Shown piece by piece: positions 14,993 to 30,583 of a stretch of DNA of 46,030 nucleotides (position 1 is its first letter; each line of letters opens with the position of its first letter). The translations under genes were made by a program, and so were the position numbers. Under the pieces are notes generated by a model. It was not told the origin of the DNA and did not search any database. It was given only the letters and a program-made list of their open reading frames with translations. The DNA comes from an uncultured bacterium (GTDB lineage Bacteria > Verrucomicrobiota > Kiritimatiellia > CAIKKV01 > CAIJXV01), in assembly GCA_903824675.1 (NCBI GenBank), contig CAIJXV010000048.1, forward strand, positions 1 to 46,030, in the 5' to 3' direction.

Positions 14993-15073
14993 TATTCTGT
15001 TTTGATCTATGATGACTATTGGTTTTCCTTCGATGGAGCCGGGGTGCCCCATACGGGTTAAGCTAAGACTATG

Positions 15074-15114
15074 AAAACGCCCCCGTTGGTCGCGCTTTCA
15101 TTGGTGGCGTTTTT
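15074..15114 (+). terminator. Possible intrinsic terminator after the DUF711 gene
   Basis: AAAACGCC at 15074-15081 pairs with GGCGTTTT at 15106-15113 and the second arm runs into a short T tract. The 24-nt loop is long, so the call is tentative. Confidence 0.35.
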
Positions 15115-15153
15115 GGGTTCCTCCCTCCCCTCGGCGTGGGGGAGGGAAAAACC

Positions 15154-15187
15154 AGCATCGCTTAATCGCCGATGCTCTCTCGGCGAT
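15154..15187 (+). promoter_or_regulatory. Two mutually exclusive stem-loops (possible attenuator-like leader)
   Basis: AGCATCG (15154-15160) can pair with CGATGCT (15170-15176). Alternatively ATCGCCGA (15065+100, i.e. 15165-15172) can pair with TCGGCGAT (15180-15187). The two stems share bases 15165-15176, so only one can form. They lie about 100 nt before the start of the three-gene hydrolase cluster. Confidence 0.35.
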
Positions 15188-15288
15188 ACGGCCACTGAAA
15201 AAGGGCGACGGCACCCGGCTCCAGCCGGCACAATGCCTATGTGCTGACCGTGTTGGGTTATTGGCGAAGCCATATAAGAGGAGTCTGC

Positions 15289-16638
15289 ATGCAAATCGGT
15301 TTTGGGAAAGTGGATATTACCCCCCGTGTCGGGGTTGAGCTCTGTGGGTTTGGTCCGCACCTGCACCGGTATTCGGTGGGGGTTCGCGACCGCCTGGAGG
15401 CGCGGGCGATGGCCGTACGGGAAGGGAATATCACCTTGGTGTTGATCAGTTGTGACTTGGTGGGGTTTCCCCTTGCCCTGACCCGGGAGATCCGCCGACA
15501 AATCCACGCCGCGACCGGAATTTCGGCGGATCAGGTTATGGTTCACGGCACTCACACCCATAGCGGGCCCAATACCATCCCTGAATTGGCGGGCTGGGGT
15601 GCCTTGGATGAACCCTACCTGGCGATTTTGCCGGGTCGGGTGGCGTCCGCCGGCATCGAAGCGGTGTCCCACCTGGAACCGGCAACACTGGCGTGGGCGG
15701 AGGTTCCCTGTATCGGCGTGTCGCTCAATCGGGAATACGATCGCGACGCGCCGCCGTTGGAAGAGGTTTTACGGGAGGATTGGCGTCCGGCCAAACCCGA
15801 GCACGTCGACACCACCTGCCAGGTGCTGAAAGCCGTGGCGAAGGACGGGCGTCTGCTGGGATTCGCGAGTTATTTTGGCTGTCATCCGGTGGTGTGTTGT
15901 CAACAGACGAGATGGATCCATGGCGATTTTGCGGGAGTGGCCTCTCATTTGATCGAACGGGAAAACCCGGGTGCGGTGGGTTTGTTTTTACAAGGGGCAC
16001 TGGGCGACATCAATAGCTGTGTGGTGCATAAACCGGAAGCGGAATCGCTGGCCGCCCTGGATGTGATCGCAGAACGTTATGCGCGGGCCGTGCGCGCGGG
16101 ATTGGCCGCGGCCCGGCCGGTAGCGCCGGGTCCCCTGGGGGCGATTCGACGGGAGCTGTCTTTCAGCCGGATCCAAGTGAGTCGCGCCGAACTGGAACGC
16201 CTGCTGGCGGAACAGGAGGCGGTGTTCACTGCCCCGGGAGCCAGCGACACGGATGACGCGGTCCGGATGGCGGCGGTCAAGGTGGCGGCCTATCGAAAAA
16301 TACTGGCGGCTCAAACGCGCGGCGAAAACCTCAATCCACCGACGGAACTGCAGGGTTTCCGGATCGGACCGGTGAGTCTGCTGGGAACGCCCTTTGAGAT
16401 TTTTCATGCCGTCAAGGAAGAGGCCTTGACGCGGTTGAAATCGGAACATCCGCTGATTTTGGGATTGAGCAATGATGAGTTGGGCTATGCGCCAGACCGG
16501 GCGACAGCCATCCGAGGCGGATATGCGGCGCAACAAGTGCCATTGATGCTGGGCCGCCTGCCCTTTGCCGCAATCCACGACGAACTGGTGTCGGCCCTGG
16601 TGGATCTGGGAGGCGCATTGTCCCAAGCCAGAAAATGA
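15289..16638 (+). CDS. Neutral/alkaline ceramidase N-terminal-domain-like hydrolase
   Basis: A 449-aa protein resembling the catalytic N-terminal domain of neutral/alkaline non-lysosomal ceramidases, which are zinc amidases. Visible family marks are GFGKVDITPRVGVELCG at the N-terminus, the zinc-site phrase GTHTHSGP (about 87-94), ASYFGCHPVVCC near 200 (second histidine site) and FLQGALGDIN near 235. It lacks the C-terminal immunoglobulin-like domain of true ceramidases (usually 640-700 aa) and has no signal peptide, so a cytosolic amidase or esterase acting on another substrate is more likely. Its stop overlaps the start of the lyase gene by 4 nt (ATGA), showing translational coupling. The start is the ATG after AAGAGGAG; an upstream in-frame GTG lacks such a site. 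Confidence 0.8.
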   Translation: MQIGFGKVDITPRVGVELCGFGPHLHRYSVGVRDRLEARAMAVREGNITLVLISCDLVGFPLALTREIRRQIHAATGISADQVMVHGTHTHSGPNTIPELAGWGALDEPYLAILPGRVASAGIEAVSHLEPATLAWAEVPCIGVSLNREYDRDAPPLEEVLREDWRPAKPEHVDTTCQVLKAVAKDGRLLGFASYFGCHPVVCCQQTRWIHGDFAGVASHLIERENPGAVGLFLQGALGDINSCVVHKPEAESLAALDVIAERYARAVRAGLAAARPVAPGPLGAIRRELSFSRIQVSRAELERLLAEQEAVFTAPGASDTDDAVRMAAVKVAAYRKILAAQTRGENLNPPTELQGFRIGPVSLLGTPFEIFHAVKEEALTRLKSEHPLILGLSNDELGYAPDRATAIRGGYAAQQVPLMLGRLPFAAIHDELVSALVDLGGALSQARK

Positions 16639-18857
16639 AAACGCCCATCATCTTTCCTGAAATTATCACTCCGAAATCTTATCCGGAACGATTGGTTTCG
16701 CTGGCTCACGATCCTTATGCCGTGGTTCCGACGGTCTTTCCTGCGCGTCCCTATCTGCAGGCGACGACGGAGCAGGTGCGGATGGTTCGCGCCCGCCTGC
16801 GCGAAGGAGCCTGGCACCGCCAGGCTTTTGCGCATATCCGCGAACAGGCGGCCGGTCCGGCACCGGAGTTGGATATCCAGGACCTCCAGCTAAAGCCCCT
16901 GTTGGCATCGGCCGGGCATGCGTTGCAAAATGCGATGGTTGCCCATGTCGCCGGTGATGGCGCCAGTCGCCAAAAAGCGCTTCGCGTGCTCCGGACTCTG
17001 GCCCGGATATATCCCGAACTGCCGATCCGGCCGGGGTGTGGGCGTTTGCCGGGCGGATGCGATTTTGACGAGGCCGCGTTCATTTCTCAGGCGGCAAAGA
17101 CCTATGATTTTCTGGCCGCAGACGGCTTGTCACGGGTCGACGACGTCTTGTTTCGCGATTTTTTAAAAGCTACGGCGGCGGGGAGCGATGCCGGCAATCA
17201 CCGGTATTGCAATAATCATCATACCGGCGGTCTCGCGGGGCGGTTGGCCGCCGCCCTGGCCCTGCAGGATCGCCAGGCCATCCATGACACGCTCTATGGG
17301 CATAACCCGGGGGGCACCTGGACCTATGGATTAATTCACCAGCTTCGCCACGAATTTCTCGCGGATGGATTGCAATGGGAACGGGCCATCTCGTATCACG
17401 CCTATACCTTGACCCACTTTGTCGAAATGCTCGATTTGCTATTGAATGTCGGGGTCGATCTATGGAATGCGAAACTTCCGCCTCTCTGGCAAAACGATGG
17501 TTTTGACGAACATCGCGATTATGGAGTGTACGCCGATGAAAGCCGATCCTTTAAGGCAACTTTCGAGATTCTGTTGTATCTGGCCTTTCCGAACGGCCAG
17601 TTATCCATGATCGGGGACTCGAACTTCGGCGCCCTTCAAGGCATCGCACACGCTTGTGGCACGTTGTTCGAACGCGCGTGGCAAGTGTATCGCGATCCGC
17701 GCTTCGCCTGGATCATTCGCCGCGTGGAAGCCGAGGCGCCGTCTGCCGGGCAGAGCCTTCCCGGTGTTCCGATGGCTTTGTGGTTGTCGGGTTGTCGGGA
17801 TCTTTTCCGGGTCGAACGAAAGAATCTGCCCCGCGGACAATTCGACTTGAGCCGGGAGGTTCGCATTTCTTCCGCTGGTGAGCATCGCCACGGCTGTTCC
17901 TGTTTCAATGCCATCGGGGCCACCTTGCTGCGATCCCGGGGGGGCGATCTTCAGGCGCCGGCCGCCTATGTCTTCTGGGGGCCGCATTCCGCCGGACATC
18001 AAAATCCCTGTCCGTTACATCTCGAACTCTACGGCGGCAATGCCACCCGAGTCCCGGCGCCGCGCTCCGCCCTGTGGAACGAATCCGATCCTTTGTATCC
18101 CAACTGGAAACGAACGACGGTGGCGCATAACACGGTTACGGTGGATCAGACTCCCGCGTTCCCGTATGATGTTGAAACCGGGTCCATCTGGGAGGCCGAT
18201 ATTTGGCGCGACCGGATTTCAGATGGCGAGCGAATCTGGTTCGAGCCGGATGCCGCAGCGTTTAAGGCGCTTAGAGTCCGGAATAGTCGAGTTTATCCCG
18301 GTGTTGTTTTGGACCGTACGGTGGTGGTCACGCCCCATCTGGCTCTGGATGTCTTTCGATGTCATTCCTCCGTGGTTCACACCTTCGATTGGGCCATGCA
18401 CGTTATCGGGACTCCCGTTGGGTTGAGCGCTTTATCCAACGCGCCGCCGCTGAAGGGGAGAGGCTATGCGCAATTGAAAGATCTCCGGCGGGTGCCGATA
18501 TCCCGTAATACCCTCGACCTGACGTGGGAAGCCCCGGAAGGTCCGACTCGGACCGCGATCCGGACCGTCAGCCCCTCCAGGGCTTTTCTGGGGCGCGATC
18601 CGGAGTCCACCTTCCGGGCCGTGGGGCAGGCGACCCCTGCCGGGGTCCGGCATGCCGTGATCGTTCGGACCCACGGAAAGGAAGCGCTGTTCGTTTCGGC
18701 CTGGACGTTCGACGGGACACCCATCGCCATCACCGGGCTCACCGGAACAGCACAAACGGCATTGCGCTTCCGTCTTCGCGCGGGCCAACGCCGGACCGAT
18801 TGGACGATTCCATTTGATGATCAGGCTCGAATTCGTGCAGGCATCGCCAGGAGTTGA
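16635..18857 (+). CDS. Heparinase II/III-like polysaccharide lyase family protein
   Basis: A 740-aa protein. The N-terminal half is an alpha-helical (alpha/alpha toroid) domain with CNNHHTGGLAGRLAAALAL (about 193-211) and the phrase FLADGLQWERAISYHAYTL (about 242-260), which resembles the catalytic region of heparinase II/III and alginate lyases with its Tyr-His pair. The C-terminal half (from about 410) is beta-rich and holds WKRTTVAHNTVTVDQ (about 492), the usual heparinase beta-sandwich phrase. Such enzymes cleave uronic-acid-containing polysaccharides by beta-elimination. No signal peptide is seen, so it probably acts on imported oligosaccharides. It is coupled to the hydrolase upstream (4-nt overlap) and the oxidoreductase downstream (3-nt gap). 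The exact substrate is unknown. Confidence 0.82.
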   Translation: MKTPIIFPEIITPKSYPERLVSLAHDPYAVVPTVFPARPYLQATTEQVRMVRARLREGAWHRQAFAHIREQAAGPAPELDIQDLQLKPLLASAGHALQNAMVAHVAGDGASRQKALRVLRTLARIYPELPIRPGCGRLPGGCDFDEAAFISQAAKTYDFLAADGLSRVDDVLFRDFLKATAAGSDAGNHRYCNNHHTGGLAGRLAAALALQDRQAIHDTLYGHNPGGTWTYGLIHQLRHEFLADGLQWERAISYHAYTLTHFVEMLDLLLNVGVDLWNAKLPPLWQNDGFDEHRDYGVYADESRSFKATFEILLYLAFPNGQLSMIGDSNFGALQGIAHACGTLFERAWQVYRDPRFAWIIRRVEAEAPSAGQSLPGVPMALWLSGCRDLFRVERKNLPRGQFDLSREVRISSAGEHRHGCSCFNAIGATLLRSRGGDLQAPAAYVFWGPHSAGHQNPCPLHLELYGGNATRVPAPRSALWNESDPLYPNWKRTTVAHNTVTVDQTPAFPYDVETGSIWEADIWRDRISDGERIWFEPDAAAFKALRVRNSRVYPGVVLDRTVVVTPHLALDVFRCHSSVVHTFDWAMHVIGTPVGLSALSNAPPLKGRGYAQLKDLRRVPISRNTLDLTWEAPEGPTRTAIRTVSPSRAFLGRDPESTFRAVGQATPAGVRHAVIVRTHGKEALFVSAWTFDGTPIAITGLTGTAQTALRFRLRAGQRRTDWTIPFDDQARIRAGIARS

Positions 18858-18860
18858 AAG

Positions 18861-19877
18861 GTGAACCAACCTCTATCATTGGCGATCTGTGGATGCGGCC
18901 GGATCGCCGCGGCACATGCCCGGGAACTCCGGACGATGCCCGGGGTGACCTTGTGTGCCTATTGGAATCGGCCGGAGGACTTTTATCTGGCGGAAAACCT
19001 GATGAAAGAATTCGGAGGTCAATATTGTACGCCTGAACTGGCGGACATCGCCGGGGATCCAACCCTTGATGGGGTTCTTGTTTGCACCATGCATAATGAT
19101 CGCCTGCGGATTCTGGAAGCGATGGCGAAGGCCGGCAAACCCGTGCTCATGGAAAAACCCCTGGCCCACTCGCCGGAACCCTTGCGGGCTATGCATCGCC
19201 TGTTGCGTCAATTCCCGATCTTGTTTCAATCCGCTTACAAAATCCGATTCCACTCGCTCATGGAACGGGCGCGCCAATTGATCCCGCACCCCGAAATCCT
19301 TTGCGCCCATGTCTGGGATGGAATGTGGCCCGACAACCATCTGAATCAAAAAGAGATCGGCGGTGGCAACGTTCGCTCGCAAGGCGTTTATGGCGCGGAA
19401 TCGCTCCATATTCTGGCGGGAAACCGGCCGGTTGCCGTTAATGCGATGGTGCGGAATGGTCGGCAACCCAGCGGAATTGAAGACACCCTTGTGGCGGTTT
19501 TTGAATTTGCAGGGGGGGCTTTGGGAACACTCTCCGTTGCCGATGCAGGGGCTGGGCCCGGCTGGGTATCCAAATTTTTAGTTGAAGCTGCGGGCGGGGG
19601 AGGTGGGGTGGCATTGGGAACCCGGTTTACCCAATTGGACTACCAGGCCAGTCCCGGCGCACCTCAGCAGACCTTTCAGGGTGTGGAAGACGGATTCCGC
19701 CGTCAAACTGAAGCCTTTCTGAGCGCCCTGCGGAACGGTACTCCCAGTCCCTGCGATTTCATTCAGGGCGCCATCCCGTCGATCATGATTGAGCAAGCCA
19801 TTGCGTCCGCGCGAGCGGGGTGTCGTCTGCCGATCGATATTGAAGGCTGGCTGGGGGAAGTGGCGGAGCCGGTTTAG
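18861..19877 (+). CDS. Gfo/Idh/MocA family NAD(P)-dependent oxidoreductase
   Basis: A 338-aa protein starting with GTG, preceded by AGGAG at 18849-18853. The N-terminal Rossmann fold shows SLAICGCGRIAAAHARELR (dinucleotide-binding GxGxxA) and the strand-turn phrase GKPVLMEKPLAHSPE around residue 95, with the lysine that is conserved in the family. The C-terminal half carries the GGGNVRSQGVYGAESLH segment, where most relatives have a GG...H signature. These enzymes oxidise or reduce sugars, inositols or sugar acids. As the third gene of the cluster it probably handles the monosaccharide released by the two hydrolytic enzymes. The exact sugar cannot be read from sequence. Confidence 0.88.
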   Translation: MNQPLSLAICGCGRIAAAHARELRTMPGVTLCAYWNRPEDFYLAENLMKEFGGQYCTPELADIAGDPTLDGVLVCTMHNDRLRILEAMAKAGKPVLMEKPLAHSPEPLRAMHRLLRQFPILFQSAYKIRFHSLMERARQLIPHPEILCAHVWDGMWPDNHLNQKEIGGGNVRSQGVYGAESLHILAGNRPVAVNAMVRNGRQPSGIEDTLVAVFEFAGGALGTLSVADAGAGPGWVSKFLVEAAGGGGGVALGTRFTQLDYQASPGAPQQTFQGVEDGFRRQTEAFLSALRNGTPSPCDFIQGAIPSIMIEQAIASARAGCRLPIDIEGWLGEVAEPV

Positions 19878-19886
19878 ATCCGGGAT

Positions 19887-19980
19887 CCGTCATTCGGGTG
19901 AGTGGGGTTGTTTCCTCTTCACCCCACAATGTTTCTGTGCTGGGGTCCTGGGGCCTCCCTTTATCCGGCATGAATGACGG
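19887..19980. terminator. Convergent-gene stem-loop region (possible bidirectional terminator)
   Basis: GTGGGGT (19902-19908) pairs with ACCCCAC (19921-19927) across a 12-nt loop. Outside it, CCGTCATTC (19887-19895) is the exact inverse of GAATGACGG (19972-19980), the latter inside the last codons of the kinase gene. The structure sits between the oxidoreductase and the kinase, which are convergent. There is no T tract, so the terminator role is inferred from position. Confidence 0.4.
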
Positions 19981-20977
19981 TGGCGGCCGTACGGGCATCG
20001 AGCGTGAGGGGGGGCGAAGTAAGGGACGATTCGGGAAAATACAAGGCGGGGAAGTGATGGCGCAAGTAATCTTCCACGGTCTGAATAGTGGGCCCATACC
20101 CATCTTTGTAAATGTAATATTCCAAAGCTTGGGCGGCTTCCCGGGCACTGTCAAAACGACGGGCGGGATCAGGATCCAGAAAGCGCTTGAGCAGGGACAC
20201 CAAAGCCGGATCGACTTCCGCCGGCAATGCTTCCCACGGTACCGGCAGTTCGGCAAAATTGTCGCGTTCGGGATCGGCGTCCAGTGGGCGGTGAGTGACT
20301 CCGGCGATCATTTCAAAGAGGACGGCGCCGAGGGAATAAAGGTCCGCCCGGAAATTCACGGGTTGGCAAGCGGCTTGTTCCGGTGACATATAGAGATCTT
20401 TTCCGATAAGCCAGTCGTCTTTGATGATGGAAAGATCGACGGCTTTGGCGATGCCGAAGTCGGTCAATTTGGCGATCCCTTCGGTGGCGATCAGAATATT
20501 ACGGGGACAGACATCGCGGTGAACGATGCCGAGGGGGGTTCCCTGGCGGTTTTTAAAGGTATGGGCATAGGCCAGCCCGCGGGCGATACGGCTGACGATA
20601 TGGACGGTGAGCGGCAGGGGAATGCTCTGGCAACGTTGCTGGTGATAAAGGATGAAATCATTCAGGGATAGGCCATGGACATATTCCATGATGATGTAAT
20701 AGGCGCCGTTCGGGGCGCGGCCGAGCTGGTAAATCTGCACGATGTTTTCATGCACCAGGTCCGAAACCAACTTGGCTTCGGCCCGGAAGAGGTTCATAAA
20801 ACGGTCATTTTCGCTCCATTGCCGCAGAAGCATTTTGACCGCCACTCTTTTTTCGAACCCTTCGACCCCGAGTTTGCAGGCCTCGTAGACGATGCTCATG
20901 CCTCCCTCGGCGATTTTGCGGGTGAGAATCAGGATCGATTCATCCTTGAAATCCAAAGAAATGGGGTCAGACGTCAT
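19961..20977 (-). CDS. Cytosolic serine/threonine protein kinase (PknB-type fold)
   Basis: A 338-aa eukaryotic-like kinase. Counting from the ATG at 20977: glycine loop IAEGGMSIVYEA (22-33), ATP lysine K48 in VAVK, E66 of helix C, catalytic loop HRDVCPRN (153-160), DFG at 173-175 and SPE at 198-200. The catalytic-loop lysine (HRDxK) is replaced by cysteine. Similar non-lysine forms (HRDVSP) occur in bacterial kinases, so activity remains plausible. There is no transmembrane helix or extracellular PASTA/NHL domain; about 90 residues follow the kinase core. An in-frame extension to 21145 would run into the promoter of the divergent fucosidase operon, so the shorter start was chosen, though no clear ribosome site precedes it. 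The target is unknown. Confidence 0.85.
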   Translation of the reverse strand: MTSDPISLDFKDESILILTRKIAEGGMSIVYEACKLGVEGFEKRVAVKMLLRQWSENDRFMNLFRAEAKLVSDLVHENIVQIYQLGRAPNGAYYIIMEYVHGLSLNDFILYHQQRCQSIPLPLTVHIVSRIARGLAYAHTFKNRQGTPLGIVHRDVCPRNILIATEGIAKLTDFGIAKAVDLSIIKDDWLIGKDLYMSPEQAACQPVNFRADLYSLGAVLFEMIAGVTHRPLDADPERDNFAELPVPWEALPAEVDPALVSLLKRFLDPDPARRFDSAREAAQALEYYIYKDGYGPTIQTVEDYLRHHFPALYFPESSLTSPPLTLDARTAATVIHAG

Positions 20978-21066
20978 GCGGCAGATTAACCGAAAAAGGG
21001 ACGCAACGGTCAATCTTAATATTGGCGTGAAATCGCCATACGAAAAAACTTGTTTTTCGGAGTCAA

Positions 21067-22080
21067 ATGAGGCAATCAATACGAATGAATAACCGACAAT
21101 TGATCGAAGTTGAAGATACCTCCCGGGCCCGGCTTCAGGCATCACCCGAAGGGTTGCGCCGCTTTCAGGAGTCGAAATTCGGAATGTCCGTCCATTGGGG
21201 ATTATATTCTTTGAGTCACCATGGGCGGGAATGGATTTACTTCGACGATCGGATTCCCTACGAGACCTATCGACAACGGATGGAGAAATTCAATCCCGTC
21301 CGGTTCAACGCCGAGGAATGGGCGGATTTGATGGTCGAAGCGGGGCAGAAATTCCTGCTGATCACCTCCAAGCATCACGATGGATTTTGCCTGTGGGATA
21401 CGGATCACACCGATTTCAAAATCAGCAACACGACCTTTAAGCGTGATGTGTTGGCTGAATTGGCGGACGCTCTACGGGAGCGGGGCATCGCCTTGCATTT
21501 TTATTATTCCCTGATCGACTGGACCCATCCGTCCTATCGTACGGACTGGCCGTCCTATATCGCCTATTATCAGGCCCAACTGCGGGAACTGTGCACCCAG
21601 TATGGTCCGATCGGCGGAATCTTGTTCGATGGCTACTGGCCGCGCATGACATTCGAGGGTGAGTGGATCGATTTCATGAAGCCCCGCGGGCCTTGGGATC
21701 TGGCCGGAACCTACGATCTGATCCACGGGCTCCAGCCGGATGCCGTGATTGTCAACAACACCCATCTGCTGCCACTCAAGGGTGAAGACTACCAGATCTG
21801 GGAGTTGGATTTGCCTGGGGAAAACACGATCGGCTTCAATGGGACCGAAATCGGCGACAACCCGCTCGCCTGCTGGTGGAACGTGAATCAATGGTCCTAT
21901 CAACCTTGGAATCATTGTGTCAGGAGTGCCGAAGAGTTGTTGACCACCTATCGTAAGTTGCGCGAAAAGAACGGCATTCTATGCCTGAACGTGGCACCGC
22001 GTCCGTTCGGAGATATTCATCCCGAAGAACAACGCGTGTTGCGTGAAATGGGACAAATGATTCGCAAGTGGAATTTATAA
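21067..22080 (+). CDS. Alpha-L-fucosidase (GH29 family)
   Basis: A 337-aa enzyme that removes alpha-linked fucose from glycans. Family marks: FGMSVHWGLYS (about 38-48), ITSKHHDGFCLWDTDHTDF (about 99-117), YYSLIDWTHPSY in the middle, and GGILFDGYW (183-191), where D188 is the predicted nucleophile. It ends shortly after the barrel, so the C-terminal beta-sandwich of longer GH29 enzymes is absent. No signal peptide is seen, so it is probably cytosolic. The ATG at 21067 follows GGAG at 21058; a second ATG at 21085 is a weaker alternative. It leads an operon with a UroD-family gene (8-nt gap) and a six-hairpin-glycosidase gene, and is divergent from the kinase. Confidence 0.9.
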   Translation: MRQSIRMNNRQLIEVEDTSRARLQASPEGLRRFQESKFGMSVHWGLYSLSHHGREWIYFDDRIPYETYRQRMEKFNPVRFNAEEWADLMVEAGQKFLLITSKHHDGFCLWDTDHTDFKISNTTFKRDVLAELADALRERGIALHFYYSLIDWTHPSYRTDWPSYIAYYQAQLRELCTQYGPIGGILFDGYWPRMTFEGEWIDFMKPRGPWDLAGTYDLIHGLQPDAVIVNNTHLLPLKGEDYQIWELDLPGENTIGFNGTEIGDNPLACWWNVNQWSYQPWNHCVRSAEELLTTYRKLREKNGILCLNVAPRPFGDIHPEEQRVLREMGQMIRKWNL

Positions 22081-22088
22081 GGAGATCT

Positions 22089-23099
22089 ATGACCCCGCGC
22101 GAACGAGTTTTAGCCACCTTACATCATGAACAACCGGACGAGACGCCCTATTGCATTTCTTTTACCCAGGATGCGCGCGAGCGGCTGATCCGCCACACGG
22201 GCGATCCGGATTTCGACCGGGTTTTGCGCAATGCCATCCTGGGTTTGGATATCCAACTGCCCGACGGCTGGCGGGAGATCGAGCCGGGAATCTGGCGGGA
22301 TGAGTTCGGGGTGGAGTGGAATCGGACGATCGACCGCGATATCGGCGTGGTTCGCAATACCCCCATCACGCCCGAGAACGTCTTGTCCTATCCCTTCCCC
22401 GATCCCCGCGATTCCTCCCGCTTCGCCGGGTATCCCGCGCGCCTGCGGGAACATCCCGATTTGTTTTCCTCCGTGTGCATCGGGTTCAGCCTGTTCGAGC
22501 GGGCGTGGACGCTGATCGGCATGGAAAACCTGCTCATGGCCATGATGGAGGCTCCCGATTATGTCGACGCATTGTTGGATCGCATTGTGGCGCACAACCT
22601 GGCCCTGATCGACGGCGCCTGCGCCCATCCGGTCGACGCGATTCATTTCGGCGACGACTGGGGCCAGCAAACCGGCTTGATCATGGGGCCGGATTTATGG
22701 CGGCGTTTCATCAAGCCGCGCTTCGCGGCCCAGTGCGCACGGGTCCGCCAATACGGCAAGTTCGTGAGTCTCCATTCCTGCGGATGCGTGCAATCCGTTT
22801 TTCCGGATCTGATCGAGTGCGGTTTGCATATTTTCAATCCCTTCCAGCCCGAGGTCATGGACCCGTTCGAGATGAAAAAAAGATTTGGACAACATTTGAC
22901 GTTTCATGGCGGAATCAGCACCCAGAAGACTCTGCCGTATGGCACGCCCGAACAAACGCGGCAGGAAGTCCGACGCCTGATTCGGGAGGTGGGGAAAGAC
23001 GGCGGCTATATCGCCGCGCCGGCCCATTGTATTCCGGGTGATGCCAAACCGGAAAATATGCTGGCGATGATCGATGAACTTAATCACCAGAGCCGGTGA
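22089..23099 (+). CDS. Uroporphyrinogen decarboxylase (UroD)-family protein, probably not heme-related
   Basis: A 336-aa protein starting at the ATG after AAGGAG. The N-terminus MTPRERVLATLHHEQPDETP is the standard opening of UroD-fold proteins. The body has IHFGDDWGQQTGLIMGPDLW (about 183) and the ending GGYIAAPAHCIPGDAKPENM (about 305), typical of the branch that resembles methylcobalamin:CoM methyltransferases. No other heme gene is nearby; it sits between two glycosidases with 8-nt and 1-nt spacings. In PVC-type genomes such UroD paralogues are common in carbohydrate loci. They may act on a methoxylated or decorated sugar or be a corrinoid-type methyltransferase (inference). Confidence 0.85.
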   Translation: MTPRERVLATLHHEQPDETPYCISFTQDARERLIRHTGDPDFDRVLRNAILGLDIQLPDGWREIEPGIWRDEFGVEWNRTIDRDIGVVRNTPITPENVLSYPFPDPRDSSRFAGYPARLREHPDLFSSVCIGFSLFERAWTLIGMENLLMAMMEAPDYVDALLDRIVAHNLALIDGACAHPVDAIHFGDDWGQQTGLIMGPDLWRRFIKPRFAAQCARVRQYGKFVSLHSCGCVQSVFPDLIECGLHIFNPFQPEVMDPFEMKKRFGQHLTFHGGISTQKTLPYGTPEQTRQEVRRLIREVGKDGGYIAAPAHCIPGDAKPENMLAMIDELNHQSR

Positions 23100-25444
23100 T
23101 GCATCCCATGACCCAAAACACTTATGAAGCGGCCCGTCGTATGTCGTGGCCCGATCTGATTAAAGCCGCAGGTCCCGTCTTTGCTCCGCCGCTCACCATT
23201 CACCACCCGATTCATCCGCCTTACAGCCGTGATTTTGTGCATGTGGAACCCTCCTTGTGCGCTATTCGGCGGAGGATCTATCCCGATCTATCCGTGCTCG
23301 ATCAGGAAACCGTAACTAAAACCGTCCAGAGCAATCCCCAATTGTATGTCCAGTTCGCGCTGGGCGACCCCCCCTTCGTGCCCGATTTCCGGCTGACCCG
23401 GTTGAATTTGCCCGACTCCGATTCTCCAAGGGTCCAGGCGGATTATTGGGCGTATGACCGGGCGTATCGGTTGGATTATACCTGTTGTCCTCTGGATTCA
23501 GCGCAATCCCTTCTGGCGATTCGCGGCACCGTGCGGAATGAAGGGGACGGGCCGTTCCCCGTCTCGATCTGGATCAAGCTCAATCTTCAATGCGAATGGG
23601 ACATGGATCCCTATCATTACGAACCCTACCGGTGGAACCAGGCCCAATGGCGACCCTGCAAGACCTTTGATTATCGCGGATCGCAATTTTGGATCGGATC
23701 CACGCCCGTCGCCCGTATCCAGCCGTACTCTTTTACCGCCCGGTGGCATCGGTCGGTGGCCTTTCCCAAGGCTGACTACAAAAGCGCTCACATATGGAAT
23801 CAACCGTATGTCGTGGAGCCGATTTACCGGTTACCCAAACTCGATCATGTGCTTCACTTGACGCGGATTTTGAAACCCGGCACCAGCGCCGACTTCGAAC
23901 TATTTGTCGCATTAGACGAAAAGAACATCACGCCACGTCACGCCGCTGCCCTGCGACAAGCCCGCTTTGAATCCTGCCACCAACGCGCCCGACGCCATTT
24001 CAAAAAAATGGATCCCCCCCAGGGCACCCGTCTCGAATTTCCCACCCAACAATGGTCCCGCATTTTTGACGAAGCTCGTCAATCCACGCTTCAGTTGCTG
24101 GTGGATTTTCAGGATGGGCGGGGCTTGATGCCCACCCAGGGGGGCTCCAGCGAACGGTATTATGTGTGGACGTGGGAGGCGATGTGTATGCTGGCGCCCA
24201 TGCTCCCGCTGGGTTATTCCACACCGGTTCGAAAAGCCCTGGAATTTCTTTTTCACCTCCAGGACGGAGGGTGTCCGCCCCAGGGCCGCTTCACCAGCCT
24301 TGCCGGTGCCATCGGCACCACCGGTCCCCGCTGGATCAATGCGACCGGCTCCGCCTTAACCCTCGCCGCTGATTATTGCCGAATGACCCGGGACCCCGGG
24401 TTCATCAAGCACTACCTTCCCCGTATGATCCGTGCCGCCGATTGGATCGTCGGCGAAATCAAGGCCACCCGAAAACTCCATCCGGATGGGACTCGCCCGC
24501 CCACCTATGGGTTGATGCCCTTCGGACACGCCACCGATGGCGATGTCGGGTTCATCTATGCTTTTACCGATGCGTATTCCTTCATGGGCCTGGACCGCCT
24601 GGTCACCCTGTTGGAGGAACTCCAACATCCCCGGGCAGCCGACTTGGCTGGGGAACGCCGGCGATACCGGTCCGATATTCGTCGGACCATCCGGGCCATG
24701 GCCCGTCCCAATGGGTGGATCGAACGGCGGGTTCCGGTTCCCGAAGAACAAATCACGCTGAAGTTCGAAACATTGATCGGTCCCACGCCATTGGCGGCGG
24801 CGGGGTTGTTGGATGTCTTTTCCCCGCTTTTCAAACGGTTCCAACGCTATCAGGAAACGACGCTGGTCCGGGATGGTTTCATGGGGAATATGGATCGGGA
24901 AGTGGCCTACGTCGGCATCGGCGAGTGGTATTGGCAGGATATTTATTTGCGACGGGGCGAATGGAAAAAGGCTTTTCTCGCCCTTCAAACCTACTTGAAT
25001 TACGGCGTTACGCCCGATACCCATCAGGTTCAGGAACGGTTTTCGCGGTTAAATCCCGCCTTCTTCCCCTGGCAGCCCAATGGAAGTGGAAACGGACGCT
25101 TACTCGAGATGATGGTCAAGGCCATCTATTTTGAAGCCGACGGCCAGGTTACTCTTTTGGGTGGCATTCCCTTCGACTGGCTGCAACAGAATGGAAAAAC
25201 CGCCCTGCGCCATCTGCGAACTCCCACCGGGCGCGTTTCGGTTATCGTGCGGATGCTCACCCCGGATCGCTGCCAGGTGACGTTGATGTCCGCCCCGGCC
25301 GCCGGCGAGCTCCGGCTCCGGTTTCCCTCTCATCTAAAGGCGCAACCGGTGTCACCGGCCGTGAAAAAGGTGGGCGATAATTTATTTGCCGTTTCAGCAT
25401 CCCTGACCCAGGTCAGTTTTATTTTAGGGTCGGCGAGGGATTAG
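23099..25444 (+). CDS. Six-hairpin (alpha/alpha-barrel) glycosidase-like protein
   Basis: A 781-aa protein. The first 300 residues are beta-rich and resemble the N-terminal beta-sandwich of alpha/alpha-barrel glycosidases. From about 330 on there is a helical toroid with FQDGRGLMPTQGGSSERYYVWTWEAMCML and KFETLIGPTPLAAAGL, as in GH63/GH78-type folds. Near the end DGQVTLLGGIPFDWL recalls the C-terminal beta-sheet of these enzymes. I cannot name the substrate. The start codon ATG overlaps the UroD stop by one base (TGATG); a GTG one codon earlier and an ATG at 23108 are alternatives. No signal peptide is seen. As last gene of the fucosidase operon it probably cuts the backbone or another linkage of the same glycan. 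Confidence 0.7.
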   Translation: MHPMTQNTYEAARRMSWPDLIKAAGPVFAPPLTIHHPIHPPYSRDFVHVEPSLCAIRRRIYPDLSVLDQETVTKTVQSNPQLYVQFALGDPPFVPDFRLTRLNLPDSDSPRVQADYWAYDRAYRLDYTCCPLDSAQSLLAIRGTVRNEGDGPFPVSIWIKLNLQCEWDMDPYHYEPYRWNQAQWRPCKTFDYRGSQFWIGSTPVARIQPYSFTARWHRSVAFPKADYKSAHIWNQPYVVEPIYRLPKLDHVLHLTRILKPGTSADFELFVALDEKNITPRHAAALRQARFESCHQRARRHFKKMDPPQGTRLEFPTQQWSRIFDEARQSTLQLLVDFQDGRGLMPTQGGSSERYYVWTWEAMCMLAPMLPLGYSTPVRKALEFLFHLQDGGCPPQGRFTSLAGAIGTTGPRWINATGSALTLAADYCRMTRDPGFIKHYLPRMIRAADWIVGEIKATRKLHPDGTRPPTYGLMPFGHATDGDVGFIYAFTDAYSFMGLDRLVTLLEELQHPRAADLAGERRRYRSDIRRTIRAMARPNGWIERRVPVPEEQITLKFETLIGPTPLAAAGLLDVFSPLFKRFQRYQETTLVRDGFMGNMDREVAYVGIGEWYWQDIYLRRGEWKKAFLALQTYLNYGVTPDTHQVQERFSRLNPAFFPWQPNGSGNGRLLEMMVKAIYFEADGQVTLLGGIPFDWLQQNGKTALRHLRTPTGRVSVIVRMLTPDRCQVTLMSAPAAGELRLRFPSHLKAQPVSPAVKKVGDNLFAVSASLTQVSFILGSARD

Positions 25445-25522: not shown

Positions 25523-27220
25523 TCAATCGGCATCCGGTTTATGTGCCAACGCCAGGAACCCGGCTGAATCCTTGCCCGTATCGCGGGTCCAGAGGCTGAC
25601 GACAATCAGCACCAGAAAGGCGCCGCTAACGCCAAATACGCCGGGTCCGCCAGCTGTTGGCAGACCGAATATCGGATCGTTTTTGACTCCCGTCAGCAAC
25701 ATATAAATGAAGACCACCGAAATGGATAAACCGGTCAGAATGCTGGCAATGACCCCCTGACGCGTGGCGCGTTTCCACCAGAGCGTCGCCAGCATGGCCG
25801 GGAAAATGGCACTGGCGGCAATCCCGAAGGCCAGCATCACGAGCCAGGCGATATTTTCTTTTTTCAGCCACACCGCCAGGATGACGGCAATGGCCGACAT
25901 CACCAGCGTGGTGATTTTGGCGATACCGAGCTCCTGTTTTTCGGTTGCGCCCGGATTGATATAGACCTTGTAAAGGTCATGGCTGATGGAGGAGGCCACC
26001 GTAATCATCAGGCCTGCGGCGGTGGAGAGAATCGCGGCCACTGCGCCCGCCGCGCCGATGGCCATGAGCCAGGGCCCGCCGACCATCTGGCTGATTTCCA
26101 ATACGGCCATATTTTTAGCCAACCCGACGCCGGTCGGTCCCTGGGATATCCAACTCACCAGTTTGGGATAAATGGCGGGGAAGAGCAGGAACCCGAGGAG
26201 AATAGCGCAGAGGTAAAAGATCCCCAAGGCGGCGATACAAAAGGTCACGCTTTTTTTCGCGGCCCGGGCGCTGGGCACGGTAAAAAACATAATCAGAATA
26301 TGCGGGAGACCGGCGGTCCCGAAAATCAGGGCAATCACGGTGCTGATCATGGCCAGGGTGTTGTTGCTCTTGACCCCGATCGTCATAACGCTGTCGGCCG
26401 CGGGCATTAGACTCCGGGTGACGGTAATGGCCTGGTCGGCCGGCAGATTGGCAATGGCCGAAACAACGGCGGGGTTCTTCCCGGCCAGAATGGGGGGGAC
26501 CGCCTGATGGGCGGTGGCCAAAATGCCGGCAAAGGAACCATGTCCCACAATGAAAAAAGCCATGACCACCAGGACGACCATGGCCACCCATAAGAAGAGC
26601 GCCTGGATCACCTGGTTGTACAGCGTCGATTTCATGCCGCCGAAGATGATGTAGATGCTCATCAGAACACCCAGGCCGATCAGCACGGCGAGGTAGTTCC
26701 AGCCGAGAAGCATTTCAAAGAGCAGCCCCGCACCGAGCATTTGCGGCACCAGATAAAAAGTCGAAATAACCACGGTGCAGACCATGATCACGAGCTTGAT
26801 TTTGTTGTCCGGGTAACGGCGGTGGAGGGCACCGGCGACCGTATAGGATCCGACATTTCGCAACGGACCGGCAATCAGGAGCAGGACCGCCATGTATCCG
26901 CCAAAAAAACCGATGGACAACCAGATCGAATCGATCCCGAAAACACCGATGTCTCCCGCACAGCCCAGAAAACTTGCGGCTGACAGATAACTGCCCACCA
27001 TGGCAATGCCGACCTGGATCCAGGGGATCCCTTTTCCGGCGACATAAAAGTCGCTGGCTGATTTACTCGAACGGCTGGTCCACCAGGTAATGACAATACT
27101 CGCTATGACAAAAAAGAGAATAAACCCGACTACGATGGCGGTATTGAGTTTGGAGGATTGCGCGGCAGGTCCCGCGGTTGCCAGAAGCAAGGCTTGACTT
27201 AAAAGAGGGGCGGTGATCAT
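25523..27220 (-). CDS. Sodium:solute symporter family permease (acetate-permease/ActP-like)
   Basis: A 565-aa polytopic membrane protein with about 13 hydrophobic segments. The phrases SKSASDFYVAGKGIPWIQVGIAMVGSYLSAASFLG (about 52-85) and IYIIFGGMKSTLYNQVIQALFLW (about 194-217) are typical of the SSS family, which couples sodium import to uptake of acetate, other carboxylates, sugars or amino acids. The gene lies 5 nt after a small membrane subunit, as in acetate-type symporters. The ATG at 27220 was chosen; a GTG at 27265 would overlap the upstream gene by 40 nt. The substrate cannot be read from the sequence; a short carboxylate is the best guess from the small subunit and the DUF294-type regulator. 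Confidence 0.88.
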   Translation of the reverse strand: MITAPLLSQALLLATAGPAAQSSKLNTAIVVGFILFFVIASIVITWWTSRSSKSASDFYVAGKGIPWIQVGIAMVGSYLSAASFLGCAGDIGVFGIDSIWLSIGFFGGYMAVLLLIAGPLRNVGSYTVAGALHRRYPDNKIKLVIMVCTVVISTFYLVPQMLGAGLLFEMLLGWNYLAVLIGLGVLMSIYIIFGGMKSTLYNQVIQALFLWVAMVVLVVMAFFIVGHGSFAGILATAHQAVPPILAGKNPAVVSAIANLPADQAITVTRSLMPAADSVMTIGVKSNNTLAMISTVIALIFGTAGLPHILIMFFTVPSARAAKKSVTFCIAALGIFYLCAILLGFLLFPAIYPKLVSWISQGPTGVGLAKNMAVLEISQMVGGPWLMAIGAAGAVAAILSTAAGLMITVASSISHDLYKVYINPGATEKQELGIAKITTLVMSAIAVILAVWLKKENIAWLVMLAFGIAASAIFPAMLATLWWKRATRQGVIASILTGLSISVVFIYMLLTGVKNDPIFGLPTAGGPGVFGVSGAFLVLIVVSLWTRDTGKDSAGFLALAHKPDAD

Positions 27221-27225
27221 GGGGA

Positions 27226-27477
27226 TTATTTCGCTTTCAAAAACCAGATGCAAATGACCAGCCACGATACCGGGAAAATGGCCAGCGACAGCAGCAGGCC
27301 CAACGGCATACCCAACACCGGCAGTACGGCAACATTTTTGCCGAGCGGAGTTTGCACCACGGCGGCACCCATGTAGAAGATGAAGAAAACGCCAAAAAGG
27401 CCGAAATCGATAGCTCCTTTGCGCCGCATATTCACCGGCCCTGCGGTTTTGACTTCAGACGATACCGGCTGACTCAT
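27226..27477 (-). CDS. Small membrane subunit of the symporter (DUF485/DUF4212-like)
   Basis: An 83-aa protein with two predicted helices, around residues 28-42 (FGVFFIFYMGAAVVQ) and 58-78 (GLLLSLAIFPVSWLVICIWF), and a soluble N-terminus. Short two-helix partners of this kind precede SSS permeases in acetate (yjcH-actP) and related loci. The stop codon is 5 nt before the symporter start, so the two are co-translated and probably assemble. I cannot tell DUF485 from DUF4212 by eye. Confidence 0.75.
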   Translation of the reverse strand: MSQPVSSEVKTAGPVNMRRKGAIDFGLFGVFFIFYMGAAVVQTPLGKNVAVLPVLGMPLGLLLSLAIFPVSWLVICIWFLKAK

Positions 27478-27597
27478 GGTTCATCCCCCAATCGACTCGG
27501 TTTAACTGCCTCATTCCTAATGTTTTAAAAAGTTATCCCAGAACGTCTTCCGAAGCAAGGAATTTTGACATGAAGTCGCGCCTGGCGCACGAAGGCC

Positions 27598-30474
27598 TTA
27601 AAGGCTGGGTTCGCCTCCCAGAAAATCCCGGGTAATACGTTCCTGCATCCGATCAATTTCCTTGAAACATTCCTTAAGAACGGCTTTGTCGATATGCCCG
27701 AGCCAGGTCGGATCAATCAGATTATCCGGGGCACCCCCGTTTTGAATCGTTGCGGACTGATGTCGCAATCGCAATCGCAACAGGGTCTCGAAGGCGGTCA
27801 GGAGATCGTGATACTGAGAGGGCAGAAGCACGCCCTGATCGGTGAGTGCGGACAGGCGGTCCTGGGTGGAGGTGAAAAGGATATTCTTTTGAAGGGCATA
27901 GAGCCGGGCAAAACTGACAATGGGCATCATCGCGGTTTTCAGGTCGAGATGGCCCGCCTTCTCCTTGGACCCCCCGGAGGCGACCAGATTCCCGAATAGT
28001 CGGACCGGCGGCTTGAACGAGAGTGCATTTCTGGCTGCCTGAGTGAAAAAAACAGGGGGGGGAGCGAGTTCCGTCTGCAGGTGCGTGCGCAGGATCTGAA
28101 TCAAATGGGTGTCACCGTAAACGCACCGCAAATCGAAGAAGGTTCCGAATTCCATCATTTCATGTGCTTCGGGTTGGGTAATCCAGTTTTTGAAATAGTC
28201 CTTCCACACCTCCACGGGCTGGCACCATTTAAGATTATGGGCCATCACCAAACCTTTGCATTCCCGATAGCCCGATTGGGTCAGGGTTTCACAAACCCGC
28301 TCAGCCAAAGCGGCAAAATAATTTCCCGTGTGGGTTTCCAGGCCCAGGGGAGGGGTGTCATACACAATCGCATTGTCTTGATCTGTGAAGAGCGTCTGCT
28401 CTTTTCGGCCTTGACTGCCCAAGGCGACAAACGCAAAGCCGACCGGCGGAGGGCCTAAATCGGCCTGGGCGAACTCGATGAATCGGATGGTGGCTGAGTC
28501 GGTGATGGAGGAGATCATGCCCGCAATCGCGATGGGGGGGGATCCACTTTCCAGCATGGCGCGGACTAATTCAGGGGACCGCCGGCAAAGGTCCACCACA
28601 TCCTGTGCCGTGGCCGCCGTCGCAATCTCACGGGCGATATCCTCCGCGGTGGCCGCCGGCACATTCAGTAACCGTTTCAGCAATCCTTCGGCGGCCGCGA
28701 TGGATCGGATCCCCTCCTCCGAACGCCGGACCAGAATAACGAATCCGCTCCCGCCATTGCCCGCTGTTCCCTTGTGAGCAATGCGACATTTCAAAACGGT
28801 TCCATCGCGTCTCCGCAGCCGCGCATCGGTGTAAACTTCGGCGCCGGTTTCCCTGAACAACGGATCCTGTCCTGAGATTTCAGGAAAGAGGTCCTGCCAA
28901 TCAAACAACGTCAATTCCTCCGCGGAACAGCCCGCCAATTCAAGAAAGACGGGGTTGGCATAGGCACACCGATGGTTCCGAACAAAAAGAACCCCTTCGG
29001 CGGCGGCCTGAACCAGGGTGAGATACCGCTCATGTGATTCCTGTAGCCGCCGTTCGGCGGACGCTCGCAGTCGGTCTGATCGCCATCCGCCCTGTAAGAT
29101 GACGAGCAGGAGTAGAATCAGGACCGCGATGATGCCGCCCATGGCATAGATCAGCCGGAGTTTCAAGGCGTGAATCTCGGCGACCACATCCTGAATATAC
29201 AATCCGGTGCCAATGACCCAGCCCCACGGTTCGAAGAGGCGGATGTAGGACTCCTTCGCTTCCAAGCGGGATGGGTCATCCTTCCATTGCCAGACATAGT
29301 CCACATACCCTTCCTTGTCTTGACGGATCTTGTCGGCGAAAACCGTGAAAATATGAATCTTTCGCGCGTCCACGAAGGAGGATAAATCCTGACCTTCCAG
29401 ATCCTTGCGGTAGGGGTGCATGAGCATCCGGGGGGACAGATCTTGCAGCCAGAAATAATCTTTTCCTTCGCGCCCGTATCTCAACGAGCGGACCCGTTCA
29501 ATCACCTGATTTTGCGCCTCCGCAGAGGACAAGCGACCCGCTTGTACTTGCTTTTCCGCCTCATCCAACAAGCTCCAGACGGTGCGGGTTAATTCCTGGA
29601 TCATCTCGCGCTTGCGATCCATGAGTGCCTTTTCGTATCCGGGAAGGAAAAAACCGAATAACGCGAGGGTGAAGAGGAATACGGCGGCTAAGGCCGGCAA
29701 AACCATCCCGATGAGCAGGTGCATCCGTCCGTGACCGGGCATAATGGGCGAAGCGGGAGGCTGCGTGAGATTTTGGGATTCGATCGCCGGACGCACTTTT
29801 TTTCGCTGTTGGAGGAGAAGCTCACGAAAAGTTTTCCATTCCTGCACGGGGAGATCGAGTCCCAGGGTCCCTCTCTCCCCCGGCGGCGGGCCATGATGAT
29901 CCGTGCCGCCTGAAACGACCAGTCCGTTTGAGCGGGCGAGTTCACGCAAAAACGCCTGCTGTTCCAACCCCACGAGGGGGTGGTAAATTTCGAGGCCATC
30001 CAATCCGGCCGGCACTAAGGCCGCAACCCGTCGGGTCAAGGACGCGACATCGGGTTCGGTCACCATCGGATGTGCCAAAACAACAATTCCGCCCGCCTGA
30101 TGAACGGCCTCGATCATCTCCGGCAGGTCTTGTTTGGGGGTCATGGAGTAGGTGGGGCTGTTGCGTAACTGGGCCTCTCTCGCCGCCAGCACCGCGTGAA
30201 TCAAGGCGGTATTCGTTCGGTCAAATCCGTAACAAAGCAGATGAATTTCCTTTTGACCCTGTAAAACAGTCAACTCCAGGCCATTAAAAACCCCTACTCC
30301 CAGTCGCTCACACGCGGCTTCAAACCGATCCAATCCATCCAAGGTGGCGTGATCGGTCAGGGCGGCATACCGGACCCCTGCCTCGGCGCAGTGCTGAGCC
30401 AGTGTTTCCGGATCCCCTTCGCCATCACTGAAGGCGGAATGACAATGGAAATCAACTTTTATGGTCGCCTGCAT
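27598..30474 (-). CDS. PHP phosphoesterase - Cache sensor - PAS - DUF294/GlnD-like nucleotidyltransferase fusion, membrane-bound
   Basis: A 958-aa protein. From ATG 30474: residues 5-230 form a PHP domain with a complete-looking metal set (H10, H12, D17, H42, E67, H78, H135, D192, H194 in the phrases DFHCHSAFSD, LTDH, VLAHP and GGTDHHG). A membrane helix at about 252-277 is followed by an extracytoplasmic single-Cache sensor (about 283-433, with GREGKDYFWLQD and GWVIGTGLYIQDV), a second helix (about 441-461), a PAS domain (about 478-588), and a nucleotidyltransferase (about 640-955) with ALGSQGRKEQ and TDQDN (D698, D700). The C-terminal part resembles DUF294/DUF294_C, usually found fused to CBS or cyclic-nucleotide domains beside acetate-type symporters. 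It heads the operon, 120 nt before the symporter subunits, and probably senses an external ligand and controls transport or metabolism. The enzymatic targets are unknown. Confidence 0.85.
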   Translation of the reverse strand: MQATIKVDFHCHSAFSDGEGDPETLAQHCAEAGVRYAALTDHATLDGLDRFEAACERLGVGVFNGLELTVLQGQKEIHLLCYGFDRTNTALIHAVLAAREAQLRNSPTYSMTPKQDLPEMIEAVHQAGGIVVLAHPMVTEPDVASLTRRVAALVPAGLDGLEIYHPLVGLEQQAFLRELARSNGLVVSGGTDHHGPPPGERGTLGLDLPVQEWKTFRELLLQQRKKVRPAIESQNLTQPPASPIMPGHGRMHLLIGMVLPALAAVFLFTLALFGFFLPGYEKALMDRKREMIQELTRTVWSLLDEAEKQVQAGRLSSAEAQNQVIERVRSLRYGREGKDYFWLQDLSPRMLMHPYRKDLEGQDLSSFVDARKIHIFTVFADKIRQDKEGYVDYVWQWKDDPSRLEAKESYIRLFEPWGWVIGTGLYIQDVVAEIHALKLRLIYAMGGIIAVLILLLLVILQGGWRSDRLRASAERRLQESHERYLTLVQAAAEGVLFVRNHRCAYANPVFLELAGCSAEELTLFDWQDLFPEISGQDPLFRETGAEVYTDARLRRRDGTVLKCRIAHKGTAGNGGSGFVILVRRSEEGIRSIAAAEGLLKRLLNVPAATAEDIAREIATAATAQDVVDLCRRSPELVRAMLESGSPPIAIAGMISSITDSATIRFIEFAQADLGPPPVGFAFVALGSQGRKEQTLFTDQDNAIVYDTPPLGLETHTGNYFAALAERVCETLTQSGYRECKGLVMAHNLKWCQPVEVWKDYFKNWITQPEAHEMMEFGTFFDLRCVYGDTHLIQILRTHLQTELAPPPVFFTQAARNALSFKPPVRLFGNLVASGGSKEKAGHLDLKTAMMPIVSFARLYALQKNILFTSTQDRLSALTDQGVLLPSQYHDLLTAFETLLRLRLRHQSATIQNGGAPDNLIDPTWLGHIDKAVLKECFKEIDRMQERITRDFLGGEPSL

Positions 30475-30583
30475 TCTCAAACCCTGCTGAAAGTCGACGG
30501 TGGAGCCGTAGTGGCCGATCTGGTGGAGGGGTCATTTTCAGGTAAAGGGAAATTAATCTCGAAAGAGGGAAGAATCAAGGAGT

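Follow-up and report, generated by a model that had tools for sequence, protein, structure and literature searches.

GlnD is a cytosolic enzyme that modifies PII and combines a nucleotidyltransferase (NTase) writer, an HD eraser and ACT sensors, with a metabolite signal setting the balance between writer and eraser. In GlnE, two NTase-fold halves add and remove AMP, with neither a PHP domain nor a membrane sensor. To our knowledge, DUF294 proteins, which are common beside acetate-type symporters, have no assigned function, and we found no published biochemistry for any of them in the open literature. The protein described here resembles GlnD in that one chain joins a metal phosphodiesterase domain to an NTase from the GlnD superfamily. 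It differs in carrying a putative PHP eraser and a periplasmic Cache sensor, whereas HD and ACT domains, the counterparts in GlnD, were not detected by Pfam, and no PII gene was seen next to its gene. GlnE, together with DrrA, provides the closest fold for its NTase and helical substrate domain.

Several further systems resemble parts of the protein. With those of the pp_0354/pp_0353 type, which pair a cNMP/CBS-DUF294 protein with a DnaQ-like exonuclease, it shares DUF294 and DUF294_C, the symporter neighborhood and a phosphodiesterase partner; there, however, the input is cytosolic cNMP/CBS rather than Cache, and the exonuclease is a separate gene rather than a fused PHP domain. RNase AM (YciV) and the 3',5'-nucleoside bisphosphate phosphatase (NBPase; CV1693) have the PHP fold and nine metal ligands in common with it, but are standalone cytosolic enzymes whose insertion of ~70 residues and phosphate-binding Arg the present protein lacks. 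The single Cache domain shares all seven contacts to C2/C3 carboxylates with PscD and McpP, in which the output is a chemotaxis signaling domain instead of an NTase and a phosphoesterase.

None of DUF294, PHP and Cache is new in itself, GlnD is a known kind of writer-eraser enzyme, and the PHP-Cache-(CBS)-DUF294 architecture may well be listed already in domain databases. Nevertheless, in 5.39 million open papers we found no description of such a receptor or of a pattern of interchangeable erasers, and nothing relevant on DUF4212, on PHP plus Cache plus nucleotidyltransferase or on adenylylation of acetate symporters, in keeping with the statement of an earlier note on this DNA that it knew of no comparable system.

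The receptor-enzyme and its neighbors

The window, i.e., the whole analyzed stretch of 46,030 nucleotides, contains, among others, three genes in the order receptor-enzyme, small subunit and SSF symporter on one strand. Their features, with the basis for each, are the following:

27598..30480, minus strand: PHP-Cache-PAS-DUF294 receptor-enzyme gene (uninterrupted ORF, Pfam, full-length relatives)
29776..30462, minus strand: PHP phosphoesterase domain, residues 7-235 (Pfam, PDB matches, Foldseek, conservation)
29644..29715, minus strand: transmembrane (TM) helix 1, residues ~256-279 (hydrophobic stretch within predicted helix 252-313)
29170..29637, minus strand: periplasmic sCache_2 domain, residues 282-437 (Pfam; 4k08 and 5g4y by sequence and predicted fold)
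29092..29160, minus strand: TM helix 2, residues ~441-463 (hydrophobic stretch within predicted helix 429-491)
28711..29031, minus strand: cytoplasmic PAS domain, residues 484-590 (PAS_8, PAS matches in relatives, predicted fold)
28168..28581, minus strand: DUF294 NTase, residues 634-771 (Pfam, motif conservation, structural kin DrrA and GlnE)
27622..28053, minus strand: DUF294_C helical substrate-binding domain, residues 810-953 (Pfam; clan according to PMC3710099)
27226..27477, minus strand: DUF485-like membrane protein of 83 aa, small subunit of the symporter (relatives have homologous short genes next to SSF)
25523..27220, minus strand: SSF sodium symporter, probably of the acetate/monocarboxylate type (Pfam SSF, NCBIfam, neighbor conserved across relatives)

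The receptor-enzyme ORF encodes 960 aa from a TTG at 30480 or 958 aa from an ATG at 30474; the latter is the likely true start and agrees with the coordinate given for the gene in the earlier note. In a single chain, the domains follow the order PHP - TM - sCache - TM - PAS - DUF294 NTase - DUF294_C. Pfam places PHP at residues 10-96 (E=1.6e-13), with the fold running on to ~235, sCache_2 at 286-436 (E=1.5e-33), PAS_8 at 484-540 (E=1.4e-4, barely above the cut-off), DUF294 at 634-771 (PF03445; E=2.2e-43, 147.9 bits against a cut-off of 21) and DUF294_C at 810-953 (PF10335; E=1.3e-37, 129.3 bits against 22.5). Because two TM helices flank the Cache domain, this domain would lie outside the cell and both PHP and NTase in the cytoplasm. 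The predicted structure (mean pLDDT 89, pTM 0.54) is not trustworthy for the relative arrangement of the domains. The protein is the sole DUF294 protein of its 4.24-Mb genome and has full-length relatives at 71, 67 and 56% identity.

Downstream, the 83-aa ORF gives a weak DUF485 match (E=0.015), which is clear in the counterparts from relatives, and the symporter ORF is open from 27265, with a likely ATG at 27220, 5 bp past the stop of the small ORF. The symporter matches SSF with E=3.9e-73 and 247 bits (Pfam); its best NCBIfam models are ActP, MctC and VC_2705, and it reaches 184.9 bits against the superfamily model TIGR00813 (cut-off 184), all substrate-level models scoring below cut-off. 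Thus, the intact ORF and its Pfam domains confirm that PHP, Cache, PAS and nucleotidyltransferase domains coexist in one protein beside a sodium symporter, as the earlier note had claimed.

We scanned 84,980 species genomes, kept the best 80 of the 299 relatives obtained and, once duplicates had been removed and whole-genome samples added, arrived at 61 non-redundant PHP-fused relatives from a dozen or more phyla. Their records are labeled Chloroflexota, Armatimonadota, Spirochaetota, Latescibacterota, Lentisphaerota, Verrucomicrobiota, Omnitrophota, Myxococcota, Hydrogenedentota, Aminicenantes, Atribacterota and others, although some of the phylum labels of metagenome-assembled genomes (MAGs) may be wrong. 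The nearest relatives of the window protein come from Lentisphaerota-labeled and PVC-group MAGs. Since the same fusion occurs in all 61 relatives, with conserved sites, an assembly join of two genes near residue 240, raised in the earlier note as a possible undoing of its claim, is excluded, and we reject a pseudogene as well; that the conserved receptor-enzyme is real is virtually certain. The idea that PHP, Cache and PAS take the place of CBS domains is not supported by the comparison: most PHP-fused relatives hold PHP, Cache, PAS and CBS together, the commonest form (~1225 aa) having a CBS pair added ahead of the NTase, and the clade of the window protein having a short form without CBS. 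At one Lentisphaerae locus (L077:1040-3695), a break within the Cache domain separates a PHP-Cache ORF from a Cache-PAS-NTase ORF, probably owing to a frameshift or sequencing error.

The nine apparent metal ligands noticed earlier in the PHP domain (H12, H14, D19, H44, E69, H80, H137, D194 and H196) correspond by alignment to the nine of RNase AM, which bind three Mn ions in structure 7UG9 (PMC9410882). Each is kept in 67 to 69 of 69 sequences, one of which is a fragment without the first half, so that the loss of ligands in relatives, put forward as a counterargument, is not borne out, and we reject the domain as a degenerate structural remnant. Sequence searches of the PDB matched the domain to 3e0f, 9etk, 2yb1 and 7ug9, and its predicted fold superimposes on RNase AM 7ug9 with a TM score of 0.84 (Foldseek). 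Its scores against the RNase AM/NBPase models NF047791 and NF041577 (86.4 and 95.5 bits) are below the cut-offs of 375 and 400. In the PHP-DUF294 family, only 2-41 residues stand where RNase AM and NBPase have their insertion, and a conserved equivalent of Arg201, which binds phosphate in RNase AM, is missing from the PHP-fused proteins, with no Arg at position 140. The domain thus has the catalytic core of RNase AM and probably a different substrate, and the missing Arg201 counterpart means that the chemistry may differ too.

The NTase motif G688-S689...R692-x-E694...D700-x-D702 is intact in the window protein. GS and R are present in 61/61 sequences reaching the domain, as is D700, and D702 is found in 59/60. 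Given that the PHP ligands and the NTase motif are both nearly invariant, the two sites are under selection, in support of the earlier description of an external sensor, a PHP domain with nine apparent metal ligands and a likely NTase in one symporter-linked membrane protein. A PDB sequence search with the NTase region gave no match; the predicted fold of the NTase and helical domain matches DrrA and GlnE (1v4a, 3k7d), which are protein AMP-transferases, and DUF294_C shares a clan with the C-terminal domains of GlnD and GlnE (PMC3710099).

The Cache domain of PscD, a C2/C3-carboxylate sCache sensor like McpP and Adeh_3718, binds acetate, glycolate, propionate and pyruvate by seven contact residues (PMC5062169). 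By sequence alignment, these map to Y342, W344, H355, F378, Y395, W397 and K409 of the window protein, and all seven are invariant in 72/72 aligned members, PHP-less ones included. Together with the matches of the domain to 4k08 and 5g4y, this conservation argues that it very probably senses short monocarboxylates, a predicted ligand type that agrees with the type of the neighboring transporter.

An SSF gene directly adjoins the receptor in 34 of the 41 PHP-fused loci with both flanks longer than 2 kb; at some PHP-fused loci, no SSF was detected. At one locus (L137, 3765-5366), an MFS transporter stands in place of SSF, with 317.3 bits against the L-lactate model (cut-off 320); it ends in an appended small-subunit-like tail. 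The SSF genes at most long-form loci (e.g., L107:4957-6894 and L082:5527-7608) have ~100-180 extra residues in one loop (region of residues 225-300 in the window symporter), in which no Pfam domain was found.

Partners of DUF294 nucleotidyltransferases

Our survey of partners covered 153 non-redundant DUF294 loci: 61 PHP-fused, 29 with Cache and without PHP, and 63 Cache-less. All 90 Cache-DUF294 loci have exactly one kind of partner (PHP, calcineurin-type or DUF6915-like), and another detected partner accompanies none of the 61 PHP-fused proteins. Among the 29 Cache proteins without PHP, 20 have a calcineurin-type phosphoesterase, in most cases with an overlap of a few bases between its gene and the NTase stop, 7 have a DUF6915-like partner, either as an adjacent gene (3 loci) or fused at the N-terminal position of PHP (4 loci), and in 2 PHP is split off or lies in trans on a separate PHP-Cache-PAS protein. 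Beside the Cache-less CBS-DUF294 genes, a DnaQ-like exonuclease was found at 46 loci and none at 17. No locus mixes partner kinds, and three Cache-NTases from other phyla (L264, L270 and L273), sampled after the rule had been seen, obey it. The partner HMMs were built from the partner sets found and would miss other kinds of eraser. Because the partner types fall into a few clades, with their labels needing 3 changes on a tree of Cache and NTase, these counts are not independent events.

The plainest case of a swap is that of L084. Its NTase lies within the calcineurin clade (support 99/93), yet its genome (94% complete) lacks a calcineurin homolog and has a separate PHP-Cache-PAS protein, which makes this a genuine swap of the calcineurin enzyme for PHP in trans. 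At L084/L065 (351-2186, minus strand; 4433-6580, plus strand), the NTase-less PHP-Cache-PAS protein is divergent from a symporter and a PHP-less Cache-NTase, the putative writer and eraser functions residing on two separate receptors. An exchange between PHP and DnaQ-type exonucleases has occurred in replicative polymerases (PMC5636811). The PHP-exonuclease of Mycobacterium tuberculosis DnaE1, as opposed to DnaQ, is a precedent for PHP/DEDD exonuclease replacement beside a nucleotidyl-transferring enzyme, although that case concerns DNA proofreading and the present one would concern signaling.

The DUF6915-like proteins (weak PF21866 match), encoded as adjacent genes at L156:5651-5986, L161:5274-5612 and L162:6149-6487 and as N-terminal fusions of ~120 residues at L069:5294-7903, L157:5503-8088, L158:4134-6743 and L160:3857-6415, have invariant His/Asp residues and are sited exactly where other loci have a phosphoesterase. 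A model of the protein (pLDDT 86) gave no fold match in the PDB, and we consider it a candidate new phosphodiesterase. A PDB sequence search with the calcineurin-type partner gave no match. Two further families of ~255-aa neighbors (L166 and L177 groups) were dropped, as they have no Pfam match and lie antisense to real exonuclease genes. On plasmid 1 of Paracoccus denitrificans (L298, 41-8902), acs, DUF4212, symporter, DUF294, a hypothetical gene, a response regulator and a 3'-5' exonuclease follow one another, representing the classic DUF294 form in an acetate-use operon.

Published genetics concern the exonuclease-linked relative rather than the PHP-Cache form. In Pseudomonas putida, pp_0354, encoding a CBS-domain protein, and pp_0353, encoding an RNase_T exonuclease, form one operon; deletion of pp_0353 impairs growth on pyruvate and deletion of pp_0354 does not, and deletion of the symporter gene actP-I impairs growth on pyruvate, not on acetate (Henriquez et al. 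2022, PMC9927547). The same study places the P. aeruginosa homologs beside actP and yjcH; mRNA decay was proposed for pp_0353, with other mechanisms left open. In a P. aeruginosa record, genes for DUF485, a symporter, cNMP-CBS-DUF294 and an exonuclease follow one another, and from this arrangement and the actP/yjcH neighborhood we infer that pp_0354, for which only the CBS domain is named in the paper, also belongs to the DUF294 proteins. The P. putida operon sits near glcB, not near actP. If the mark inactivated its target, loss of the eraser should mimic loss of the target and loss of the writer should be silent; the phenotypes would therefore fit a symporter-inactivating writer and a reactivating eraser, a reading that is ours and not that of the authors of the study. 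The opposing activities suggested in the earlier note thereby gain indirect support, in that Cache-DUF294 always occurs with one of several unrelated partners, mostly phosphoesterases, and the P. putida genetics would fit an eraser.

A possible switch for carboxylate uptake

We propose that the receptor is a transmembrane, carboxylate-responsive version of a GlnD-type bifunctional enzyme. The outward Cache domain would bind short monocarboxylates (e.g., acetate, propionate, pyruvate or lactate), and the signal, relayed by the TM helices, by PAS and, in members that have it, by CBS as a reporter of adenine nucleotides, would set the balance between NTase and PHP. As the writer, the DUF294 NTase would transfer a nucleotide, probably AMP, onto a protein; as the eraser, the N-terminal PHP domain would hydrolyze the phosphodiester bond so made. 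The likeliest target would be the neighboring SSF symporter or its small subunit, inactive when marked. In the absence of external carboxylate, the writer would dominate and uptake would be shut; with carboxylate, the eraser would dominate and uptake would open. The sequences establish the domain architecture, the conservation of the two active sites and the carboxylate pocket, the link to a transporter and the exclusivity of partners; the chemistry, direction of control and target of this scheme are what we infer, and for the scheme as a whole we regard the case as close to evenly balanced. Its parts differ in strength: the NTase probably modifies a protein, we lean slightly towards PHP as the remover of the NTase's mark, and the choice of the symporter as target is tentative, falling somewhat short of even. 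The related minimal NTase MntA adds AMPs to tyrosine via a GSX10DXD motif (PMC7641770), which makes AMP on tyrosine a reasonable guess for the mark; among the symporters, several columns of conserved Tyr/Thr are shared as possible sites and do not discriminate.

Alternatively, the NTase might make a small nucleotide signal (cyclic, or a linear di- or oligonucleotide) that PHP degrades and that controls the symporter or metabolism. The pairing of unrelated phosphodiesterases with one NTase would suit such degradation too, nucleic acids or nucleotides are the substrates of RNase AM-type PHP and DnaQ-type enzymes, and CBS domains could bind the signal. However, GlnE and DrrA, which the NTase and helical domain resemble in structure, modify proteins, the 50 fold matches listed include no messenger synthase, and we found no conserved receptor gene for a nucleotide signal beside the transporter, making a second messenger unlikely.

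Control at the RNA level, with PHP (and, in relatives, the exonuclease) degrading or processing RNA for the transporter or central carbon metabolism and the NTase either modifying RNA ends or being accessory, draws on the closeness of PHP to RNase AM/NBPase and on the mRNA idea stated for pp_0353 (PMC9927547). It is nevertheless quite improbable: PHP lacks the insertion domain and phosphate-binding Arg of RNase AM, the C-terminal domain groups with those of GlnD and GlnE, which act on protein substrates, and the recurrent tie to one NTase and a transporter would be left unexplained. We give as little credence to PHP and NTase not being antagonists, with PHP directed at a different substrate, be it a phosphorylated protein or metabolite, and the fusion doing no more than placing it under the same receptor; PHP domains do have diverse substrates, and the conserved phosphate-binding Arg is absent, but such a reading is at odds with the L084 swap and with the limit of one partner that Cache-NTases strictly keep to. 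Finally, a target encoded away from the locus, namely a regulator of transcription or metabolism, with gene adjacency reflecting co-regulation only, might account for the glcB location of the P. putida pair and for the PHP-fused loci without a detected SSF, but is very unlikely in view of the SSF adjacency in 34/41 well-flanked loci, the non-homologous lactate-type transporter at L137 and the phenotype shared by the exonuclease and actP-I deletions.

Extended to the whole family, the writer-eraser scheme becomes more speculative: DUF294 NTases may be widespread, unrecognized switches for carboxylate uptake that act by reversible protein nucleotidylation and are served by at least three unrelated erasers (PHP, calcineurin-type and DnaQ-type), with DUF6915-like proteins as a fourth and a new phosphodiesterase fold, a generalization that we hold to be doubtful. 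Under it, the PHP-Cache form is self-contained, one chain holding the sensor, the writer and the eraser. If true, monocarboxylate uptake would have a post-translational on/off switch common to many phyla, the puzzling need for a nuclease in growth on pyruvate would be explained, and a new family of erasers might come to light in the DUF6915-like proteins. With the swapping of partners and the carboxylate pocket, the gap in DUF294 function becomes testable, in terms of nucleotide, protein, partner and acid.

Elsewhere in the window, a 3237-aa ORF at 23-9736 with a beta-helix and autotransporter-type PATR repeats probably encodes a giant surface protein. A same-strand run at 13628-25444, comprising DUF711, ceramidase-like, alginate-lyase-like, Gfo/Idh/MocA, alpha-L-fucosidase and URO-D-like genes and a 782-aa protein without a Pfam match, looks like a carbohydrate-use cluster.
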